Source: Spirochaetales bacterium
GTDB taxonomy: Bacteria; Spirochaetota; Spirochaetia; DSM-2461
Reading direction: 5' to 3'
Length of the DNA: 32,213 nucleotides
Assembly: GCA_016936555.1 (NCBI GenBank)
Contig: JAFGXR010000045.1
Coordinates: 1-32,213 of the forward strand
Part shown: piece by piece, positions 389 through 21,592 of the stretch
Layout: the number at the start of each line of letters is the position of its first letter
Position numbering within the stretch: position 1 is the stretch's first letter
The notes under the pieces: model-generated
Seen by the model: the letters and a program-made list of their open reading frames with translations, nothing else
The model's database searches: none
Told to the model about the DNA's origin: nothing
Made by a program: the position numbers and the translations under genes

Positions 389-402
389 TGTGCATATGCA
401 TT
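389..402. promoter_or_regulatory. Palindromic operator copy 1 (TGTGCATATGCATT)
   Basis: The core TGCATATGCA (391-400) is a perfect 10-bp palindrome, and 12 of 14 positions match the perfect copy at 3480-3493. It lies between the divergent MATE and DUF1007 genes, just upstream of the MATE start and just upstream of the -35 box of the DUF1007 promoter. It could therefore act on both genes. Binding by a regulator is inferred. Confidence 0.65.
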
Positions 403-406
403 AAGA

Positions 407-435
407 TTGACATAAAAAGAACATACTGTTATCAA
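407..435 (+). promoter_or_regulatory. Probable sigma-70 promoter of the DUF1007-NicO operon
   Basis: A perfect -35 TTGACA (407-412) is followed after 17 nt by TATCAA (430-435), a 4/6 -10 box. The predicted transcription start falls on or next to the ATG at 442, and no Shine-Dalgarno sequence precedes that ATG. The mRNA may be leaderless or very short-leadered. Confidence 0.5.
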
Positions 436-441
436 TAAACC

Positions 442-1074
442 ATGAAAAAACGAATTCTCTACACTCTTTTCCTGTTTATTTCTTTTTCGCACCTGCAGGC
501 TCACCCTCACATGGCTATCTATTACAGCTGCGATTTTCATTTTGAAGAAAGCGAACTGAAAGGAGCCTGGATCAATTTCGCATTCGACAGGTTTTTCTCC
601 GTCGATATCACAAATACCTATGATCTGGACGGCAACGGAGTTTTCAGCCCTGAAGAGACTGAGGAAATCTACAACCACGCTTTTATCAATCTTGAACATT
701 ACGGCTTTTTTATCAGCATCCGCGATAGGGGCGGGAGAACCTCACCTGAAACCGTTTCGGATTTTTATGCCTATACCGATGATGAAGAGATCCTCAATTA
801 CCGGTTTTATATAAATCTGAAGGAGAACAGAGAACGGGAGTTCTACCTGTCGGTTTACGATCCTACCTTCTTCTGCGCCACCTATATGGCCGATGAAACC
901 CCCGTTTCCGTAACGGCGGATCCTCCGGTTCAAAGTTCCTACGCCATAGAGGAGAACACAGATTATCCGGTGTATTACGATCCCCTGGCTCCGGCTTCCG
1001 ACACGAGTACCTATGATGAATGGCGTCCCGGTCTGAATACCTATTTTCCCGAGGAAATCCACTTTGTCTATTAA
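442..1074 (+). CDS. DUF1007-family periplasmic protein, partner of NicO transporter
   Basis: This is a 210-residue protein with a Sec signal peptide (about residues 1-20, KRILYTLFLFISFSHLQA). The mature protein begins HPHMAIYYSC. The His-Pro-His motif right after the cleavage site is a hallmark of DUF1007 proteins, which are usually encoded next to RcnA/NicO-type nickel/cobalt transporters and are thought to handle metal in the periplasm. A DLDGNGVFSPEE stretch near residue 60 resembles an EF-hand loop, also common in this family. The 3' end overlaps the TTG start of the NicO gene by 11 nt, so translation is probably coupled. The start is fixed by the signal peptide although no ribosome-binding site is visible. 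Metal binding is inferred from the family and neighbour. Confidence 0.8.
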   Translation: MKKRILYTLFLFISFSHLQAHPHMAIYYSCDFHFEESELKGAWINFAFDRFFSVDITNTYDLDGNGVFSPEETEEIYNHAFINLEHYGFFISIRDRGGRTSPETVSDFYAYTDDEEILNYRFYINLKENREREFYLSVYDPTFFCATYMADETPVSVTADPPVQSSYAIEENTDYPVYYDPLAPASDTSTYDEWRPGLNTYFPEEIHFVY

Positions 1075-1942
1075 GCCGCTCACAATGATTCTTACACTTC
1101 TTTTACTGACAGTCCTGCCGTCATTTTATCTGACAGCCAATCCTTTTCTCGGAAATACGGAAAAAGAGCAGCCCGTCGTCCGCCCCCCTTCATCGGGAGG
1201 TTTTATGGTGGAGACGCAATTGAAATTCAGAGAGATTCTGGCAGACAAACTGGAAGGTTTTGAAGAAGGATCCAACCCCGCACTCTATTTCCCGCTCCTG
1301 GGAGCGGCTTTTCTCTACGGGATTCTCCACGCCGCAGGCCCGGGACACCGCAAGACTGTCATTTTCTCCCTTTTCCTCTCCCGGAAAACCCGATGGTACG
1401 AACCCCTTGCCGCGTCCTTTGTCTCGGCAGGAGTCCATGGAGGAACAGCCGTCATTCTCATACTCCTCTTCCAGCTCCTGTTCAACAGCATCCGCTCTGC
1501 CGATGTTCAGAATATCAGTTCATGGCTGGAGGGGATCAGTTATTCCCTTCTGATGCTTCTGGCCTTGTGGTTTCTCTTCCGGCGTCACAGTCATCGTCAT
1601 GACCGGGAGATCCATGGCAATATATACGGTACTCTGGCCGCCTCGAGCTTCTTCCCCTGTCCGGGCGTCATTATGATCATGACGTTTTCCGCCGCTCTCG
1701 GGGTACTGAAAACCGGCATTCTGGCTGTAATCAGTTTATCGGCCGGTATGGGGGCGACCATTTCCCTGGCAGCCTATCTGGCTTATTTCGGGCGGGAGAG
1801 CCTCTTTCTGCTCCTCAAGGAAAAAGAGCGGTTTGTGGAGAGAACAACCGCAATACTGGAAAAAGGGAGCTATCTTTTCCTCTTTATTTTCAGCCTCTGG
1901 ATGGCTTATCCTTTTTTCAGGACGATTCTCCTCCCGGACTGA
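1064..1942 (+). CDS. NicO/RcnA-like nickel/cobalt transporter
   Basis: A 292-residue polytopic membrane protein. Helix 1 of the core carries LYGILHAAGPGHRKTVIFS (about residues 84-102), matching the HAxGPGHxK signature of NicO/RcnA nickel-cobalt exporters. A histidine-rich cytoplasmic loop, RRHSHRHDREIHG (about 172-184), and ASSFFPCPGVIMIMTF (about 190-205) are the other family marks. The family exports Ni2+/Co2+ or delivers them across the inner membrane. The TTG at 1064 has GAGGA 8 nt upstream and overlaps the DUF1007 gene. An alternative ATG at 1085 lacks a ribosome-binding site. The gene ends 2 nt before the stop of the convergent kinase, leaving no room for a terminator. Confidence 0.87.
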   Translation: MSIKPLTMILTLLLLTVLPSFYLTANPFLGNTEKEQPVVRPPSSGGFMVETQLKFREILADKLEGFEEGSNPALYFPLLGAAFLYGILHAAGPGHRKTVIFSLFLSRKTRWYEPLAASFVSAGVHGGTAVILILLFQLLFNSIRSADVQNISSWLEGISYSLLMLLALWFLFRRHSHRHDREIHGNIYGTLAASSFFPCPGVIMIMTFSAALGVLKTGILAVISLSAGMGATISLAAYLAYFGRESLFLLLKEKERFVERTTAILEKGSYLFLFIFSLWMAYPFFRTILLPD

Positions 1943-1944
1943 TT

Positions 1945-3393
1945 TCATTGTTCCGCAGGGAGAGTAAAGCAGAACTCCGCCCCCTGTCCCGGTTCCGACT
2001 CCACCCAGATCCGCCCCCTGTGGAGCAGAACGATTTTCCGGCATATGGCCAGCCCTAGCCCTGTTGAGGTTTCCCCTCCCGTCGGTTTGGCCGACAGTTT
2101 CTGAAATTCCAGAAAAGCGTGCTCTTTATCATAGCGGTTCATACCGGGACCGCTATCCCAGATGCGGAAGACCACGCGCCCTTTTTTACTCTTGAGATTG
2201 ATGATGATCTCTCCCCCCGGCTCGGTAAACTTTACGGCGTTACTGATCAGGTTATCAACGACCTGGGAAATCCGGTCCGCGTCGAAACGTATGGGAGGCA
2301 GTTCTTCCGACTTCAGATTCAGTGAGATCTGTTTTTTTTCAGCCAGTTCATAGAAGATGGAATCAAGCCGCCCGGCTACCAGACCGGTAAGGGAATTCTC
2401 CTTGAGAAACAGTTTCCCCGTCCCTTTTTCAAGACTTGTAATATTGAGAAGATCATTGAGAAAAGCCATCATCTTTCCGGAAGACTGTGATATGGTTGAC
2501 AGGGCTTTGGCGATGTGATCGGAAAACTCATCTCTCGATTTATCGAGGAGCCTGTTGCAGATCATTTCGATATTGGCCAGCGGCACACGAATATCATGAG
2601 CCACCATCCCGATCAGATTGTTTTTCTGTTCATTGAGATTGCTCACTTTGGTAAAGGCTTCCAGCAGTTCAGCCTGGGTGATGATTCTGCAGTAGAATTC
2701 TTCCGGAGAATAGGGCTTGCTGATAAAATCATTGGCCCCCGATTTGAGAAATGTAGCTGATGAGGCTTTTGTTGAAGGATGGGATATCCCGATAATGGAG
2801 AGGTGCTGCTTGTCATACTGTTCCCGGAGAATTTTGACCAGTTCATAACCGTTCATATGGGGCATCTCGAAATCGCTGATGACGATCCTGATATCGGGAT
2901 TGGACTCGATAAGCCCCAGAGCTTCCATACCGTCTCCCGCTTCCATAACGGTAAACTTTGTCTGTTCCAGGATGTACCGGCTGATCTTTCTCGCCGAAGG
3001 GGAATCATCGACTATAAGAACTTTAATTTCCCTGTTCAGTTCCATTCTCCGGACAGCATAAAAAAGATCATCGTAACTCTGCTTGCGGTTTTTGGAGATA
3101 AACTCGAGAATATTCTTCTCCTGTAGCATTTCTCTCAGCTCAGCTGTATATTCCCTGTCTGAAAACAGGATGACAGGTATGGTACGGAAGGAAATCAGCC
3201 TGATCGTATTCTGCCATTCATCATTGTCGGGATCCATATCCACAATGGCGGCGAAATAATCTCCTTTCATGATTTCCAGAGAGGCTTCCTGATAATCGGC
3301 ACAGAGAACGGTTTTGAAATTCCCCTGCTCCAATATCTGCTGTATTTCACGAGAAACTGATTTATCGCTTTCAATAATCAGTAGGCGGTCCAT
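1945..3393 (-). CDS. Hybrid sensor: receiver-receiver-histidine kinase
   Basis: A 482-residue soluble protein with no membrane segment or sensor domain. Domain order: a degenerate receiver (residues 2-117, VDMD around 51-54, Lys about 101); a canonical receiver (123-240, acid pair Asp129/Asp130, phospho-acceptor Asp174 in ISDFEMPHMNGYELV, Lys226); HisKA with the H-box VAHDIRVPLANIE (His266); then HATPase with an N-box (DNLISNAVKFT), DSGPGM and GLGLAI. It probably autophosphorylates and integrates signals from other kinases through its receivers. I chose the ATG at 3393 because the receiver fold starts there; a TTG at 3429 would add 12 atypical residues. It is divergent from the DUF5320 operon and has no partner regulator next to it. 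Its targets are unknown. Confidence 0.9.
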   Translation of the reverse strand: MDRLLIIESDKSVSREIQQILEQGNFKTVLCADYQEASLEIMKGDYFAAIVDMDPDNDEWQNTIRLISFRTIPVILFSDREYTAELREMLQEKNILEFISKNRKQSYDDLFYAVRRMELNREIKVLIVDDSPSARKISRYILEQTKFTVMEAGDGMEALGLIESNPDIRIVISDFEMPHMNGYELVKILREQYDKQHLSIIGISHPSTKASSATFLKSGANDFISKPYSPEEFYCRIITQAELLEAFTKVSNLNEQKNNLIGMVAHDIRVPLANIEMICNRLLDKSRDEFSDHIAKALSTISQSSGKMMAFLNDLLNITSLEKGTGKLFLKENSLTGLVAGRLDSIFYELAEKKQISLNLKSEELPPIRFDADRISQVVDNLISNAVKFTEPGGEIIINLKSKKGRVVFRIWDSGPGMNRYDKEHAFLEFQKLSAKPTGGETSTGLGLAICRKIVLLHRGRIWVESEPGQGAEFCFTLPAEQ

Positions 3394-3451
3394 TAATTTA
3401 ATGATAAACGCCCTGCATTTACTTTTCAAATCATCAATTCATTCCAGACAC

Positions 3452-3493
3452 TTGACAATTCAGTTCACCGGGAGTATATTGTGCATATGCACA
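3452..3493 (+). promoter_or_regulatory. Promoter with perfect 14-bp palindromic operator (copy 2)
   Basis: The -35 TTGACA (3452-3457), a 17-nt spacer and the -10 TATATT (3475-3480) form a strong sigma-70 promoter. TGTGCATATGCACA (3480-3493) is a perfect 14-bp palindrome that starts on the last base of the -10 box and covers the predicted start site. This is classic repressor geometry. It drives the DUF5320 pair at 3524 and perhaps the DUF134 gene. Confidence 0.75.
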
Positions 3494-3523
3494 TTTGTGA
3501 TTTAAATTATCGGAGGTAATGAT

Positions 3524-3832
3524 ATGAGAGGAAACAGAAAAGGACCTGAAAACAGAGGTCCCCAAACAGGAAGAGGCCTGGGATACTGCAGCGGAAGCGA
3601 CAGGCCGGGCTTTGAAAGCAATGAAGCTCCCATGGGCCTGCGGCGGGGCGGCGGATACGGCAGAGGCGCCGGCCGCGGTCAGGGCAGAGCCATGGGAAGA
3701 GGAATGGGACGCGGCTTTGGAAGAGGATATTATGAAGCGGAGGGATTTGATAATTCGGTTCAGCAGAATATACTCGAGCGTCTGGAGAAAATTGAAAATC
3801 TCCTGAATAAAGGAGACGGTTCTGAATCATGA
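3524..3832 (+). CDS. DUF5320-like glycine/arginine-rich small protein
   Basis: A 102-residue protein in three parts. The N-terminus (GPENRGPQTGRGLGYCSG) resembles the GPMTGRGxGYC start of DUF5320 proteins. A Gly/Arg/Met repeat follows (about residues 40-68, repeated GRG and MGRG). The C-terminal helix (QQNILERLEKIENLLNK) looks like a short coiled coil. DUF5320 genes usually travel with NifX-family proteins and 4Fe-4S MinD ATPases, as here, but their function is unknown. GGAGG lies 7 nt before the ATG. The stop overlaps the next start by 4 nt. The single Cys in the GYC motif could be a metal ligand, which is speculation. Confidence 0.75.
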   Translation: MRGNRKGPENRGPQTGRGLGYCSGSDRPGFESNEAPMGLRRGGGYGRGAGRGQGRAMGRGMGRGFGRGYYEAEGFDNSVQQNILERLEKIENLLNKGDGSES

Positions 3833-4017
3833 AAGGGAACGGCAGAGGACCTGAAAACAAAGGTCCCGGAACAGGACGCAAAATGGGGTTCTGTTACGGA
3901 TGGGGCAGACCGGGGTATGAAAACGATGAAATCCCCGGAGCACCGTCGCGCCTCTCCGGTCACTTTGATAATGGAAACAGAAAGAAAATCCACAATCAGA
4001 GTGAACTAATGAATTAA
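3829..4017 (+). CDS. Second, shorter DUF5320-like protein
   Basis: A 62-residue product whose N-terminus (GPENKGPGTGRKMGFCYG) is clearly paralogous to that of the preceding gene, including GRPGYENDEIP against GRPGFESNEAP. It lacks the Gly/Arg repeat and the coiled-coil tail, so it looks like a duplicated N-terminal module followed by about 20 unrelated residues. Its ATG overlaps the upstream TGA (ATGA), indicating translational coupling. It may be a functional small partner or a decaying duplicate. Confidence 0.65.
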   Translation: MKGNGRGPENKGPGTGRKMGFCYGWGRPGYENDEIPGAPSRLSGHFDNGNRKKIHNQSELMN

Positions 4018-4040
4018 CAGAACGGGCAAAATGCTCTAAT

Positions 4041-4077
4041 ATGAAAAACATGCTGTACGTCACGGCATGTTTTTCAT
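4041..4077 (+). terminator. Strong hairpin with U-tract between DUF5320 pair and DUF134 gene
   Basis: ATGAAAAACATGC (4041-4053) and GCATGTTTTTCAT (4065-4077) pair perfectly over 13 bp. T-G-T against A-C-G extends the stem to 16 bp (one G-U) with a 5-nt loop. The inner CATGCTGT/ACGGCATG stem followed by TTTTT fits an intrinsic terminator. It ends 19 nt before the DUF134 ATG, so it either insulates that gene or attenuates read-through into it. Confidence 0.65.
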
Positions 4078-4096
4078 GAAAGCAAGGGAGTATTGG

Positions 4097-4420
4097 ATGC
4101 CCAGAAGATTTAAACATAGAAATTGCCGGCACCTCGACGGTGACAGGAATTTCAAACCATCAGGAATACCTTCCAGAGAACTGGAAAAGGTGGAAATGAA
4201 ACTCGACGAGTTCGAAGCGCTCCGTCTCTGCGATTACGATGGAATGAGCCAGATCGAAGCCGGAGAAGCGATGGGTGTCTCCCGGGGAACCGTACAGAGG
4301 CTACTCCTGTCGGGCCGCAAAAAAATCGTCGACGTTCTTCTCCATTCCAAAGAGCTGGTTGTTCATAATATAACGGCTAACCACGACAACACCAGCCTTC
4401 CCCGGAATGGGAATCAATAA
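4097..4420 (+). CDS. DUF134 (UPF0251) family HTH DNA-binding protein
   Basis: The ATG at 4097 has AGGGAG 6 nt upstream and gives 107 residues beginning MPRRFKHRNCRHLDGDRNFK, the typical UPF0251 start (MxRPxxxR...FKPxGIP). The middle holds the sigma-70 region-4-like helix-turn-helix: MKLDEFEALRLCDYDGMSQIE and then AMGVSRGTVQRLLLSGRKKI, where MSQIEAGEAMGVSRGTVQRLL is the HTH. Members are predicted transcription factors that co-occur with DUF5320, NifX-family and MinD-ferredoxin genes. An in-frame ATG at 4067 lies inside the upstream hairpin and is unlikely. It is the only regulator inside the palindrome-controlled cluster and so the prime candidate to bind TGTGCATATGCACA; this is inferred. Confidence 0.85.
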   Translation: MPRRFKHRNCRHLDGDRNFKPSGIPSRELEKVEMKLDEFEALRLCDYDGMSQIEAGEAMGVSRGTVQRLLLSGRKKIVDVLLHSKELVVHNITANHDNTSLPRNGNQ

Positions 4421-4432
4421 ACAGAATCAGTC

Positions 4433-4477
4433 TTGACTTCTTGTCTCCGGAAAGGTATCTTTAGCGTGCATATGCAC
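4433..4477 (+). promoter_or_regulatory. Promoter with palindromic operator (copy 3)
   Basis: The -35 TTGACT (4433-4438), a 17-nt spacer and the -10 TATCTT (4456-4461) are followed 4 nt later by the perfect 12-bp palindrome GTGCATATGCAC (4466-4477). That covers the expected transcription start. It drives the NifX-like gene and both ATPases. Confidence 0.72.
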
Positions 4478-4507
4478 TGAAAGAAATTAGAATTCCCGGA
4501 GGAACAA

Positions 4508-4873
4508 ATGAATATAGCATTCTGCAGCACAGGTTGTGAGCTTAAGTCCGAACTGGACGACAGATTCGGAAGGACAACATATTTTCTGATCTATAAAACG
4601 GAAACCAGCGAAATCATCTGTATTGAAAATGAGGCCCGCATGGCCAAGGGAGGAGCCGGATCCCAGGCTGTACAGCAACTTATAGACCATAACGTTTCCG
4701 TGGTAATCGCTCCCGAAGTAGGCCCTCAGGCCATGGATGCCTTGAAAAGATTCAACATCACACCATACAACCAGAAAGGGGCGAAAACAGTTGAAGAAGC
4801 CCTTGCTCTCTGGAAGGATGAAAAACTTCCCCTGATCGAAGAACCCGGCGCCAAAGGTCTTCACAAGGCGTAA
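4508..4873 (+). CDS. NifX/ORP-like dinitrogenase Fe-Mo cofactor-family protein
   Basis: A 121-residue single-domain protein with the Fe-Mo-cofactor-binding fold shared by NifX, NifY, the NifB C-terminus and the orange protein ORP. It has MNIAFCSTGCELKSELDDRF at the start, then FGRTTYFLIY, GGAGSQAVQQLIDHNVSVVI and IAPEVGPQAMDALKRFNI. Members bind metal-sulfur clusters without being nitrogenase subunits. No nif structural genes are present, so a nitrogenase role is unlikely. GGAGG lies 5 nt before the ATG. The gene ends 2 nt before the first 4Fe-4S ATPase, an arrangement like ORP loci in Desulfovibrio, where MinD-type ATPases partner a Mo/Cu-cluster protein. Confidence 0.85.
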   Translation: MNIAFCSTGCELKSELDDRFGRTTYFLIYKTETSEIICIENEARMAKGGAGSQAVQQLIDHNVSVVIAPEVGPQAMDALKRFNITPYNQKGAKTVEEALALWKDEKLPLIEEPGAKGLHKA

Positions 4874-4875
4874 CA

Positions 4876-5727
4876 ATGAAAATAGCCATTCTAAGCGGAA
4901 AAGGGGGAACGGGGAAAACGACCGTTTCCAATAATCTTGCGGCCCTGATCTCAGAGGCTGTTCTGATCGATTGTGATGTGGAAGAGCCGAACAGCCATAT
5001 TTTTATGGTTCCCCGGATTACCGGAGAGGAAGAGATTCAGACCGGTTATCCCGTTGTCGATGATGATAAATGCATCCATTGCCGCAAATGCGCCGATTTC
5101 TGCCATTACAACGCCATTATAGCAGGTGCTGCAGCGACAATGCCTCTGAAGGATCTATGCCACGACTGCGGTGGTTGCCGGCTCGTCTGTCCTGCCGGAG
5201 CGATCACATATGAGAAAAAGGGAATCGGCACCATATATACGGGAAAGAGCCGGTTCGGATCGGACTTCCTCTACGGGCAGCTTCACCTCGGAGAACTGTC
5301 CGGTGTAAAGATCATCAACAGGCTGAATGAAATGACCGCAGACAGGGACCTTGTTCTGGTAGACTCGCCTCCGGGAACCTCCTGCTCCACTGTAGCCGCC
5401 CTGGAAGACAGCGATTATGCTGTCATCGTCACCGAGCCGACTCCTTTCGGGGTCAGCGATATGAAAATGGTAGTCGAAATGCTCAGGGAAATGGAAATTC
5501 CCTTCTCCGTCGTTGTGAATAAAGCCGGTCTGGGCGATAAGGAAGTCTACGATTACTGCCGAGGGGAGAATCTTTCCATTTCAGGAGAAATACCCTTTGA
5601 CAGATCCGTGGCGGAAGCCTACGCGTCGGGAAAGCTCGCTGTGGAAATCAGCGATGAAAACAGAAGCCTCTACAATACATTGTGGCTGAATATTCGAAAG
5701 GAAGCGGAGAAAAGCCATGAAAATTAA
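4876..5727 (+). CDS. MinD/Mrp-type P-loop ATPase with 2x4Fe-4S ferredoxin insert (first copy)
   Basis: 283 residues. The deviant Walker A SGKGGTGKTT (7-16) and LIDCDVEEPN mark the MinD/Mrp/Nbp35 family. A ferredoxin domain is inserted with Cys66/69/72/76 (CIHCRKCADFC) and Cys95/98/101/105 (CHDCGGCRLVC), enough for two 4Fe-4S clusters. LVLVDSPPGTSC supplies the Walker B region, and TEPTPFGVSDM follows. Such paired ATPases are thought to load or transfer metal-sulfur clusters onto NifX/ORP-like clients. The stop overlaps the next start by 11 nt. Confidence 0.9.
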   Translation: MKIAILSGKGGTGKTTVSNNLAALISEAVLIDCDVEEPNSHIFMVPRITGEEEIQTGYPVVDDDKCIHCRKCADFCHYNAIIAGAAATMPLKDLCHDCGGCRLVCPAGAITYEKKGIGTIYTGKSRFGSDFLYGQLHLGELSGVKIINRLNEMTADRDLVLVDSPPGTSCSTVAALEDSDYAVIVTEPTPFGVSDMKMVVEMLREMEIPFSVVVNKAGLGDKEVYDYCRGENLSISGEIPFDRSVAEAYASGKLAVEISDENRSLYNTLWLNIRKEAEKSHEN

Positions 5728-6586
5728 GGAAATCGTTGTCATTTCAGGAAAAGGCGGAACGGGGAAAACAACTCTGACAGCCTCACTCGTTCCTTTTCTG
5801 GAGGATGCCGTTATTGCCGACTGCGATGTCGATGCTCCCGATCTTCACATACTTCTCAATCCCCGGAGCGAAGAAGAGGAAACATTCTCCGGTTCCGCTA
5901 AAGCGGTAATCAATGAAGATCTCTGTACCCATTGCAATCTATGTATTGATCACTGCCGGTTCGGCGCTATTGATGACACTCCCCGTATCAACCCCATGAA
6001 ATGTGAGGGCTGCGGTGTTTGTGAATACATCTGCCCCGTTGATGCGATTGCCCTGAACGATGTGACAACAGGTACTGTTTTCAAGGGAATGACCGGATAC
6101 GGCCCGATGGTTCATGCCAGGCTCGTACCGGGAGAGGAGACTTCGGGAAAACTCGTATCGCAGGTAAGAAACGAAGCGAAAAAAAGAGCCGAATCCGATG
6201 GAAAAAGATACGTCCTTATCGACGGTTCACCGGGAATAGGCTGTAATGTTATTTCCTCTATAACAGGAGCATCGACTGTTCTTATCGTAACGGAACCTAC
6301 TCTTTCGGGACTGCACGATATGAAGCGTGTGCTTGAAGTGGCGGCGCGGTTCTCCGGAAAGGTATTCGTCATAATTAATAAATATGATCTATCCGTGGAG
6401 ATGACGCGGAGAATTGAAAAAGAAGCTGAAGACAACAACGCCCCCGTACTGATGAAACTGCCTTTCGACAAAAAGATCGTGCAGGCTGTTACGGAGAAAA
6501 AAATCCCGTCGCTTGCTGAGCCTGACCTGTTTGAAATGGCAGGGTGGAAGAATCTTCTGCAAAGACTCAGGGATCCGGAGAGTTGA
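5717..6586 (+). CDS. MinD/Mrp-type P-loop ATPase with 2x4Fe-4S ferredoxin insert (second copy)
   Basis: A 289-residue paralogue of the preceding protein with the same architecture: Walker A SGKGGTGKTT (10-19), Cys70/73/76/80 (CTHCNLCIDHC) and Cys96/99/102/106 (CEGCGVCEYIC), then LIDGSPGIGCNV, TEPTLSGLHDM and VIINKYDLS. The second copy has SPGIGC where the first has SPPGTSC. The two probably form a heterodimer, as is usual for adjacent copies, acting on the NifX-like proteins either side. AAGGA before the overlapping ATG serves as ribosome-binding site. The stop codon lies inside the -35 box of the next promoter. Confidence 0.9.
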   Translation: MKIKEIVVISGKGGTGKTTLTASLVPFLEDAVIADCDVDAPDLHILLNPRSEEEETFSGSAKAVINEDLCTHCNLCIDHCRFGAIDDTPRINPMKCEGCGVCEYICPVDAIALNDVTTGTVFKGMTGYGPMVHARLVPGEETSGKLVSQVRNEAKKRAESDGKRYVLIDGSPGIGCNVISSITGASTVLIVTEPTLSGLHDMKRVLEVAARFSGKVFVIINKYDLSVEMTRRIEKEAEDNNAPVLMKLPFDKKIVQAVTEKKIPSLAEPDLFEMAGWKNLLQRLRDPES

Positions 6587-6622
6587 CTCTAAGGGCTTCA
6601 GCAGGTATATTGCATATGCACA
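6583..6622 (+). promoter_or_regulatory. Promoter with palindromic operator (copy 4)
   Basis: The -35 TTGACT (6583-6588) shares bases with the upstream stop codon. A 17-nt spacer leads to the -10 TATATT (6606-6611). The perfect palindrome TGCATATGCA (6611-6620), extended on the right to CA, begins on the last base of the -10, exactly as in copy 2. It drives the second NifX-family gene. Confidence 0.72.
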
Positions 6623-6646: not shown

Positions 6647-7006
6647 ATGAGTGATTATGACATGAGAGTGGCTTTTCCGACTAACGACAGAGCCAATGTT
6701 GAAGAGCATTTCGGACATGCAAGGGAATTTGCCTTTGCCAATGTAAAAGACGGACAGGTGGTTTCGACAGAATACCTGACTCCCCCTCCCCATGCACCCG
6801 GCGTGATTCCCGCTTTTGTGGGAGACAACGGCGCGACAGCCATCATTACCGGCGGTATGGGCGGAATGGCGATAGACCTGTTCAAACAGCGGGGAGTGGA
6901 AGTCATTCTGGGCGCGAGAGGCTCCATTGAAGAAACTCTCGCGGTTTATATCAGCGGAAATCTGGATTCGACCGGTTCCGCCTGCGAGCACGACCATCAC
7001 CATTGA
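6647..7006 (+). CDS. Second NifX/ORP-like protein with His-rich C-terminus
   Basis: A 119-residue protein of the dinitrogenase Fe-Mo-cofactor fold: MRVAFPTNDRANVEEHFGHA, REFAFANVKDGQVVS, then AFVGDNGATAIITGGMGGMA and FKQRGVEVILGARGS. The EEHFGHA signature and the C-terminal CEHDHHH tail offer metal ligands. The His tail is absent from the first copy and fits a nickel- or metal-handling role beside NicO. It has its own palindrome-controlled promoter, so it may be made in a different amount from the ATPases. AGAGG precedes the ATG by about 8 nt. A terminator follows. Confidence 0.85.
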   Translation: MSDYDMRVAFPTNDRANVEEHFGHAREFAFANVKDGQVVSTEYLTPPPHAPGVIPAFVGDNGATAIITGGMGGMAIDLFKQRGVEVILGARGSIEETLAVYISGNLDSTGSACEHDHHH

Positions 7007-19790: not shown

Positions 19791-21592
19791 AATTACGAAG
19801 AATTGAAGTTGAAAATTTCAGAGGATATTTAAAACCATTTGCAATTGATTTTGATGATTTCACTGCAATAATTGGAAAAAATGACATCGGCAAATCAACA
19901 ATCCTGTCAGCCCTAACTATTTTTCTTGAGGGCGATGGATGTAAGATCGATTCTGGCGATGGCTGTATTCATGGTGATCCATCAAATGTCCGGATTTCTT
20001 GTGATTTTGATAACCCACCAGAATCTGTAATTATAGATACATCGTATTCTACATCATTAACTGATGAATGTTTGCTGCTTGAGAATGGGAGTATTAGATT
20101 AACAAAGATCTATGACTGTACAAAGAGTACAATAAAACCACAAGCATTCATTGACGCGGAACATCACCCTGTTTTTGGAGGTAATTCTTTACTCCCTTTA
20201 ACGATCTCAGACCTAAAAAAGGAAGCCCAAAAACTTAATATAGAATTAGAAACAGGTGAAGCTACTGCAAAAGCTAAAATCCGAAAGGCAATAATTGAAA
20301 GATCAACACCTGGTAGTTTTGAAAAAACTAACATCAGAATCCCAGCCGGAAAAAATGGAGCTAATGAAATCTGGGAACAGCTACTAAATTACTTACCTCA
20401 TTGTGCTCTTTTTATCTCAGATCGTTCTAGTACAGATAAAGATGATGAAGCTCAATCTCCACTTAAAATAGCTGTACAGAATGCTCTTGATGAAATACAA
20501 CCTCAACTTGATGAAATTGCCGAATTCATTGAAAACAAAGTTCAAAATGTAGCAAATCGTACTTTAGAAAAATTGAACGAAATGAATTCTAATTTAGCCT
20601 CAGAATTAAGCACATCATTAAGAGAAAAACCAAAATGGAAAGATATTTTTAAATATACTCTTCAGAGTGATTCCGGGATTCCATTGGATAAGAGAGGATC
20701 AGGAGTAAGAAGGATGGTTTTATTAAATTTTTTCAGAGCTGAAGCTGAGCGTAAAGCCTCAGAAGGCTCTTCTCGTCCAATTCTATACGCAATTGAAGAG
20801 CCAGAGACCTCACAACATCCTGAGCATCAAAAATTACTGATTAAAGCTTTACTTGAATTATCTGAAAACAATGACCAAGTTGTAATTACTTCTCATGCAC
20901 CTGGCTTAATAGGCGAAGTACCTGCTGAATGTGTTCGATTTATAGATGAAAACTCAGGAGAAAAGAAAATAAGAAGTCTTGAGACGGAGGAACATATTTC
21001 TCTTTTTCAGTCATTAGCAGAAAAAATGGGATTATTACCGGATAACCAAATCAAAGTAATAATTTGTGTTGAAGGTGTTAATGATGTGAGATTTCTAAAA
21101 CATGTTAGTAGGATTTTAAAAGGGTCTGGAGAAGATGTGCCGGATCTAAGTACAGACCACAGATTTGCTCTTCTGCCCCTTAACGGTTCAAATCTAATAG
21201 ATTTTGTAAACTTGAATCTCCTAAAACATTTTAATAGACCTGAATATCATATTTATGATCGAGATGATTTAAATACATATTCATATCAATCTGAAGATGT
21301 AAACAATCGTAATGATTGTTCGAAAGCAGTAGTCACAAAAAAGCGTTATATGGAAAGCTATATCCATCCAGAAGCTATTAAAAGAACATGTGGTTTTGAA
21401 ATCGAAATTGATGATGAAACGGATTATACAGCAAGATTTGCAACCCTTTTTGGCCAGAAGAAGTCTCGTGCAAAAGCCCATCTTGCAGATATAGTTGCTG
21501 CATCTATGAGCAAAGAAGAGATTCTTGAACGTGATAATCAAAGGGAAATTATCACTTGGCTCACAGAAATTAAAGAACTTGCAGCTTTATAG
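19787..21592 (+). CDS. OLD-family ATPase/TOPRIM endonuclease embedded in the R-M operon
   Basis: A 601-residue protein starting with TTG inside the hsdS stop (TTGA). An ABC-type ATPase comes first: VENFRGY, Walker A GKNDIGKST (30-38), a variable coiled segment, a signature-like GSGVRRMVLL, Walker B YAIEEPE (337-340 EEPE) and ITSHAP. A TOPRIM nuclease follows: ICVEGVNDVRFLKHV (Glu429) and IYDRDD (Asp491/493). This is the architecture of OLD nucleases such as GajA. No UvrD-like GajB gene follows, so it is not a plain Gabija system. Placement inside hsdM-hsdS-hsdR suggests an accessory effector triggered when restriction fails, as with RloC or PrrC; that is inferred. The gene is AT-rich. Confidence 0.85.
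   Translation: MKLRRIEVENFRGYLKPFAIDFDDFTAIIGKNDIGKSTILSALTIFLEGDGCKIDSGDGCIHGDPSNVRISCDFDNPPESVIIDTSYSTSLTDECLLLENGSIRLTKIYDCTKSTIKPQAFIDAEHHPVFGGNSLLPLTISDLKKEAQKLNIELETGEATAKAKIRKAIIERSTPGSFEKTNIRIPAGKNGANEIWEQLLNYLPHCALFISDRSSTDKDDEAQSPLKIAVQNALDEIQPQLDEIAEFIENKVQNVANRTLEKLNEMNSNLASELSTSLREKPKWKDIFKYTLQSDSGIPLDKRGSGVRRMVLLNFFRAEAERKASEGSSRPILYAIEEPETSQHPEHQKLLIKALLELSENNDQVVITSHAPGLIGEVPAECVRFIDENSGEKKIRSLETEEHISLFQSLAEKMGLLPDNQIKVIICVEGVNDVRFLKHVSRILKGSGEDVPDLSTDHRFALLPLNGSNLIDFVNLNLLKHFNRPEYHIYDRDDLNTYSYQSEDVNNRNDCSKAVVTKKRYMESYIHPEAIKRTCGFEIEIDDETDYTARFATLFGQKKSRAKAHLADIVAASMSKEEILERDNQREIITWLTEIKELAAL

Follow-up and report, generated by a model that had tools for sequence, protein, structure and literature searches.

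Four copies of a short palindrome lie between positions 389 and 6622 of a contig from a Spirochaetales bacterium, which raises the question of what these copies control and which protein reads them. We analysed the whole stretch of DNA (32,213 nt, hereafter the window); genes, promoters and a hairpin given below with start and end coordinates are on the plus strand.

Palindromes at promoters of iron-sulfur and redox genes

The initial annotation had placed the copies at 389–402, 3480–3493, 4465–4478 and 6609–6622 and reported no other in the window. All were recovered at those places, exact copies of the core TGCATATGCA starting at 391, 3482, 4467 and 6611, and the rest of the window holds no fifth core. 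Chance would supply 0.04 cores, and none of the dinucleotide-preserving shuffles reached four. The full 14-mer TGTGCATATGCACA, a perfect palindrome, is exact only at 3480–3493 (operator 2), operators 1 (TGTGCATATGCATT, 389–402), 3 (CGTGCATATGCACT, 4465–4478) and 4 (ATTGCATATGCACA, 6609–6622) differing from it at two positions in the outer dinucleotides.

A promoter scan confirmed the further claim that three copies sit on, or within 4 nt of, the −10 box of promoters with a 17-nt spacer: the sites at 3480, 4465 and 6609 lie on the −10 box or 3–4 nt past it, in TTGACA/T-17 nt-TATATT/TATCTT promoters starting at 3452, 4433 and 6583. Operator 2 overlaps the first of these (TTGACA-17-TATATT, 3452–3480), ahead of genes for a small glycine-rich DUF5320 protein (3524–3832; PF17253, E 4e-10) and a second DUF5320 protein (3829–4017; PF17253, E 2e-7). 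A strong hairpin (4040–4078; RNA fold z −5.1), also kept in the congener G002, separates these from the gene for a DUF134 (UPF0251) protein, the proposed regulator (4097–4420; PF02001, E 4e-20). Operator 3 lies just downstream of TTGACT-17-TATCTT (4433–4461), followed by genes for a NifX-like (Nitro_FeMo-Co) protein (4508–4873; PF02579, E 5e-22) and two P-loop ATPases (4876–5727, which is Orp3/Orp4-like, and 5717–6586), each matching Pfam CbiA/ParA and Fer4 and carrying two 4Fe-4S motifs. Operator 4 overlaps TTGACT-17-TATATT (6583–6611) ahead of the gene for a second NifX-like protein (6647–7006; PF02579, E 4e-19), which resembles the ORP domain of MrpORP (E 1e-27 against the C-terminal region of that protein); a TetR gene follows at 7003.

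The fourth copy, operator 1, was indeed found between the MATE and DUF1007 genes. It abuts the −35 box of a candidate DUF1007 promoter (TTGACA-17-TATCAA, 407–435), which was read from the sequence and falls below the threshold of the promoter scan. This promoter starts 4 nt downstream of the operator and ends 6 nt before the start codon, so that the transcript is possibly leaderless. The DUF1007 gene (442–1074; PF06226, E 7e-33) is the probable first target of operator 1 and is followed by that of a NicO-type nickel/cobalt transporter (1064–1942; PF03824, E 5e-13).

Absence of the motif from orthologous promoters would have spoken against an operator. It is conserved there: G002 keeps all four window sites at nearly the same spacing, and a second congener, G001, has sites ahead of DUF1007, NifX and DUF5320, with DUF134 the last gene of the DUF5320 operon. 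Operator 1 is at the same place in both, and its arrangement with TTGACA-17-TATCAA ahead of DUF1007 is the same in three congeners, these two among them. DUF1007-NicO is a conserved target. The MATE gene was considered as a target and rejected, as it is absent from both neighbourhoods, where cupin or MBL-fold genes are found instead. Across the family, the 12-mer TGTGCATATGCA occurs in 20 of 26 genomes and a control 12-mer in none of the 26.

Scattering of copies without relation to promoters, the other outcome that would have been damaging, was not seen either. The whole genome (4.7 Mb) contains nine core copies, compared with one for a reversed control, and eight of the nine are promoter sites upstream of iron-sulfur or redox genes. 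Those outside the window are found next to a NifX-like gene that is divergent to a thioredoxin-like/TrxB pair, between genes for a CoA-disulfide-reductase-like flavoprotein and formate-THF ligase, ahead of a 4Fe-4S ferredoxin-SLAC1 pair, and ahead of a second CoA-disulfide-reductase-like flavoprotein gene. The ninth copy (L001, C14:31312) is embedded in a longer GCAAGCG-type palindrome, a different operator type. Among matches with up to two mismatches in the same genome, eight were read in context (those on C106 and C110 were left out) and six of these two-mismatch matches are inside genes. An additional good site, TGTGCATTTGCACA (C27:149029; core CATTTG), falls within the TTGACA spacer of the Trx-TrxB promoter. 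Another two-mismatch match (L231, C103:29489) falls across the probable start codon of an XdhC-like gene; divergent to this gene is one for a tungstate/molybdate-type binding protein. The match is probably due to chance, though a molybdenum link would be interesting.

The predicted regulon extends beyond the window to Trx/TrxB, CoA-disulfide-reductase-like and ferredoxin-SLAC1 operons. The proposal that one control unites the exporter, the DUF5320 pair, the NifX-like proteins and the 4Fe-4S ATPases largely holds: it is supported for DUF1007-NicO, DUF5320, NifX and the ATPases and fails for MATE, which is not a conserved target. The label 'metal/redox' agrees with the gene content and remains an inference from it.

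Association of the palindrome with DUF134 genes

The exact 14-mer is present in only 7 of 393 spirochaete genomes, and six of the seven copies are near a DUF134 gene, at 9, 22, 25, 116, about 600 and about 850 bp (range to about 1.2 kb); the seventh is inside an open reading frame, and its genome has no DUF134 match. We next assembled a set of 131 DUF134 genes and scored how often each of the 64 palindromic hexamers forms the middle of a longer palindrome within 200 bp upstream. CATATG-centred palindromes occur in 38 of 130 DUF134 upstream regions and the next-best hexamer in 3; after removal of relatives more than 65% identical, the counts were 17 of 58 and 3. Other genes of the same loci gave 34 of 609, a conservative control that blunts the contrast because it includes neighbouring regulon genes which themselves carry sites. 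About two thirds of DUF134 upstream regions lack a CATATG palindrome; many of the genes concerned are in operons, with a promoter that may be further up, which was not checked case by case. Together with the window shuffles and the genome and spirochaete counts, the hexamer test leads us to reject a chance origin of the copies.

Several autoregulated promoters carry paired sites 29–35 bp apart that straddle the −10 region. At three loci (L013, L028 and L030) two operators 15 bp apart overlap between divergent NifX and DUF134 genes (TGTGCATATGCCCAAnGWGCATATGCACA), an arrangement that suggests cooperative binding.

The window protein is a clear member of the family DUF134/UPF0251 (PF02001, COG1342), scoring 72.7 bits against a curated cut-off of 27. 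It also matches Sigma70_r4_2 (E 9e-8), and its structural model, of good confidence (pLDDT 85), is a helix-turn-helix like sigma region 4 (Z up to 7.3, a moderate value), with SRGTVQRLL (residues 62–70) as the recognition helix. We found no solved DUF134 structure, only weak matches to the sigma factor SigE. Of the 131 proteins, 28 have at least 200 residues and a NifX-like second part, confirmed by Pfam in all three that were scanned; the window instead has separate genes for DUF134 and the NifX-like proteins. On gene arrangement alone, this suggests a metal-sulfur cluster as the signal.

Cross-phylum evidence comes from plasmid records only. Plasmid-borne DUF134 genes of Bacillota, Gammaproteobacteria and Bacteroidota have variants of a CAWWTG-centred site upstream, giving CAWWTG as the general operator centre. 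The site overlaps the −35 box in Roseburia (TATTGACATATGTCAATA), is present twice, 29 bp apart, in Klebsiella and Aeromonas, and in Phocaeicola (TGAACATTTGTTCA; helix SRPTLSRIY) has the same arms as in spirochaete proteins with SRPTLSRII. A plasmid of Peptoclostridium (Clostridia) carries DUF134-NifX-ATPase-ATPase-MrpORP in a row, the same module as in the window. About 190 plasmids, the majority from Klebsiella, Citrobacter and E. coli, encode DUF134; in these records and at L053, L054 and L059, DUF134-NifX is often followed by genes for a PaaI thioesterase, Dps, ArsR and an FAD oxidoreductase. The family is found in bacteria and archaea, Methanocaldococcus and Methanosarcina being among the control matches; there are no relatives in phage records.

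Recognition helix and operator flanks

The triplet flanking CATATG varies with the recognition helix of the DUF134 protein encoded at the locus. Helices of the window type, SR[GA]T-x-QR, go with GTG in 21 of 26 loci as opposed to 1 of 102 others. SRQT-x-GR helices have GAG or GGG, the GN, GK and AN types TGG or TAG, the types ending in Y TGA, SRPTLSR GAA and the SRS-F types GCA. A TGRG flank is found in 16 of 34 loci of its own helix class and 2 of 94 others, a TGA flank in 8 of 12 and 2 of 116. Of 29 genes whose protein has Arg68, 27 show G at −3 of both half-sites; of 11 without it, none does.

In a DUF134 tree built without the helix columns, all 54 rows with a typed operator agree on the pairing of QR helix and GTG. 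GTG arises at two places, one being the window clade and the other a distant pair (L074 and L096) whose proteins are only 34–36% identical to that of the window, yet have the helix SRGT-F-QR and the exact 14-mer. Independent changes on the tree are nevertheless few (two for GTG, about three for Arg68), so shared ancestry contributes to the match, and independent-pairs tests had too few changes to reach significance. A helix-operator code is therefore suggestive at the level of sequence and not statistically proven.

These flanks bear on the alternative that the palindrome is bound by another protein, of CRP/FNR or Rex type or encoded by the TetR gene at 7003, and that DUF134 is merely a co-regulated target. 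CRP and Rex consensus sites read TGTG-N8-CACA, which the TGTG/CACA half-sites here resemble, and a TetR gene occurs both shortly downstream in the window and, in some relatives, divergent to DUF134. A CRP or Rex site was rejected, however, since TGTG and CACA are 6 rather than 8 nt apart in the window sites, and no TetR gene is annotated beside DUF134 in the annotated plasmid loci of other phyla. Variation of the flanks with the DUF134 helix is not what a different binding protein would produce, and we regard this explanation as improbable. Still harder to sustain is the idea that the CATATG palindromes play a structural part in DNA or RNA, for instance as hairpins or methylation sites, and are not operators. 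A perfect palindrome is able to fold into a cruciform or hairpin, and one copy was flagged as terminator-like, but the flank sequence is conserved and class-specific beyond what symmetry needs, and the copies are upstream of or within promoters, not at gene ends.

We conclude that the palindrome is a genuine and conserved operator belonging to a regulator family not characterised before, direct binding being inferred. Co-location and helix-operator matching strongly support DUF134 as the regulator; binding by DUF134 is very likely in the absence of binding data, and repression likely in the absence of expression data.

A model for DUF134 regulation

The computed evidence covers the sites and how they are conserved, their association with DUF134 and the match of helix to operator. 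From this we propose, with good but incomplete confidence, that the palindrome is the operator of the window DUF134 protein, which would most likely be an autorepressor governing a NifX/Mrp iron-sulfur and thiol-redox regulon; direct binding, dimerization, repression and signal are all inferred. A pair of DUF134 subunits would bind N3-CATATG-N3, one recognition helix of sigma-region-4 type entering each half-site. Helix residues, notably Arg68, would read the flanking triplet, and the common centre would be CATATG (more widely CAWWTG). Bound to the −35, spacer, −10 or +1 region, DUF134 would most likely repress its own operon and a small regulon of NifX-like proteins, 4Fe-4S P-loop ATPases, DUF5320, DUF1007-NicO, thioredoxin reductase, CoA-disulfide-reductase-like flavoproteins and the ferredoxin-SLAC1 operon. 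Release would probably follow from metal-sulfur cluster or thiol/redox status, sensed through a NifX-like domain, which many relatives carry as a fusion with DUF134 and for which the window has a neighbouring gene.

The direction of control is less secure. Repressor-type control, as originally suggested, fits three window sites, but operator 1 abuts a −35 box, which leaves the sign of regulation at position 389 open and would also suit activation. That DUF134 activates, or activates and represses according to position, is a minority possibility that we do not dismiss: operator 1 is directly upstream of the −35 box, at about −46, in three congeners, and sigma-region-4-like domains, the type found in DUF134, can contact RNA polymerase. 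Most sites, however, overlap −10, spacer or +1, positions typical of repression, and operators of the TGA class contain the −35 hexamer, again a repression-type position. Autorepression, which we favour, carries its own caveat in the window, where the hairpin at 4040–4078 is a possible attenuator or terminator controlling DUF134 and, with a possible promoter of the gene's own, makes control by operator 2 uncertain.

The window clusters two 4Fe-4S P-loop ATPases with NifX/ORP-like proteins, as do the ORP operons of Desulfovibrio vulgaris (Orp3, Orp4, Orp8, MrpORP; PMC6345978, PMC3897727). Those operons are under sigma-54, the enhancer-binding protein DVU2106 and IHF (PMC3897727), whereas the window promoters are sigma-70-like with DUF134-type operators. 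Sigma-54 control was rejected here, there being no TGGC-N7-TTGC near the operators and a sole exact window match at 20789. No MrpORP fusion was found among ten window proteins scanned, the rest of the window and the genome having been left out. With one-component repressors of the LacI, CRP/FNR, Rex and TetR types the proposed system shares an autoregulated short palindrome overlapping promoter elements; it differs in having a DUF134 helix-turn-helix that is sigma-70 region-4-like and, as candidate sensor, a NifX-like metal-cluster domain that is either fused or supplied in trans.

DUF134 is annotated merely as predicted DNA-binding, to which the present analysis adds a candidate operator with a regulon, and a match between helix and operator. 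The literature searched, from which subscription journals were mostly absent, contains no description of the motif or of a DUF134 operator or function. A tentative extension, for which the odds are somewhat against, is that the family comprises multi-phylum metal-cluster-responsive repressors whose sigma-region-4-like helix reads N3-CAWWTG-N3 by a simple code (for example Arg68 to G at −3) and which use NifX/ORP-like domains, fused or separate, to sense metal-sulfur cluster status. The predicted operator and helix-to-base code make the family directly testable: if the DUF134 model is true, the window protein would bind TGTGCATATGCACA and not TTGACATATGTCAA. The operator also lets regulons be predicted wherever a genome encodes DUF134, and gives a way into the control, in anaerobes, of the NifX/ORP iron-sulfur proteins, which are poorly understood.
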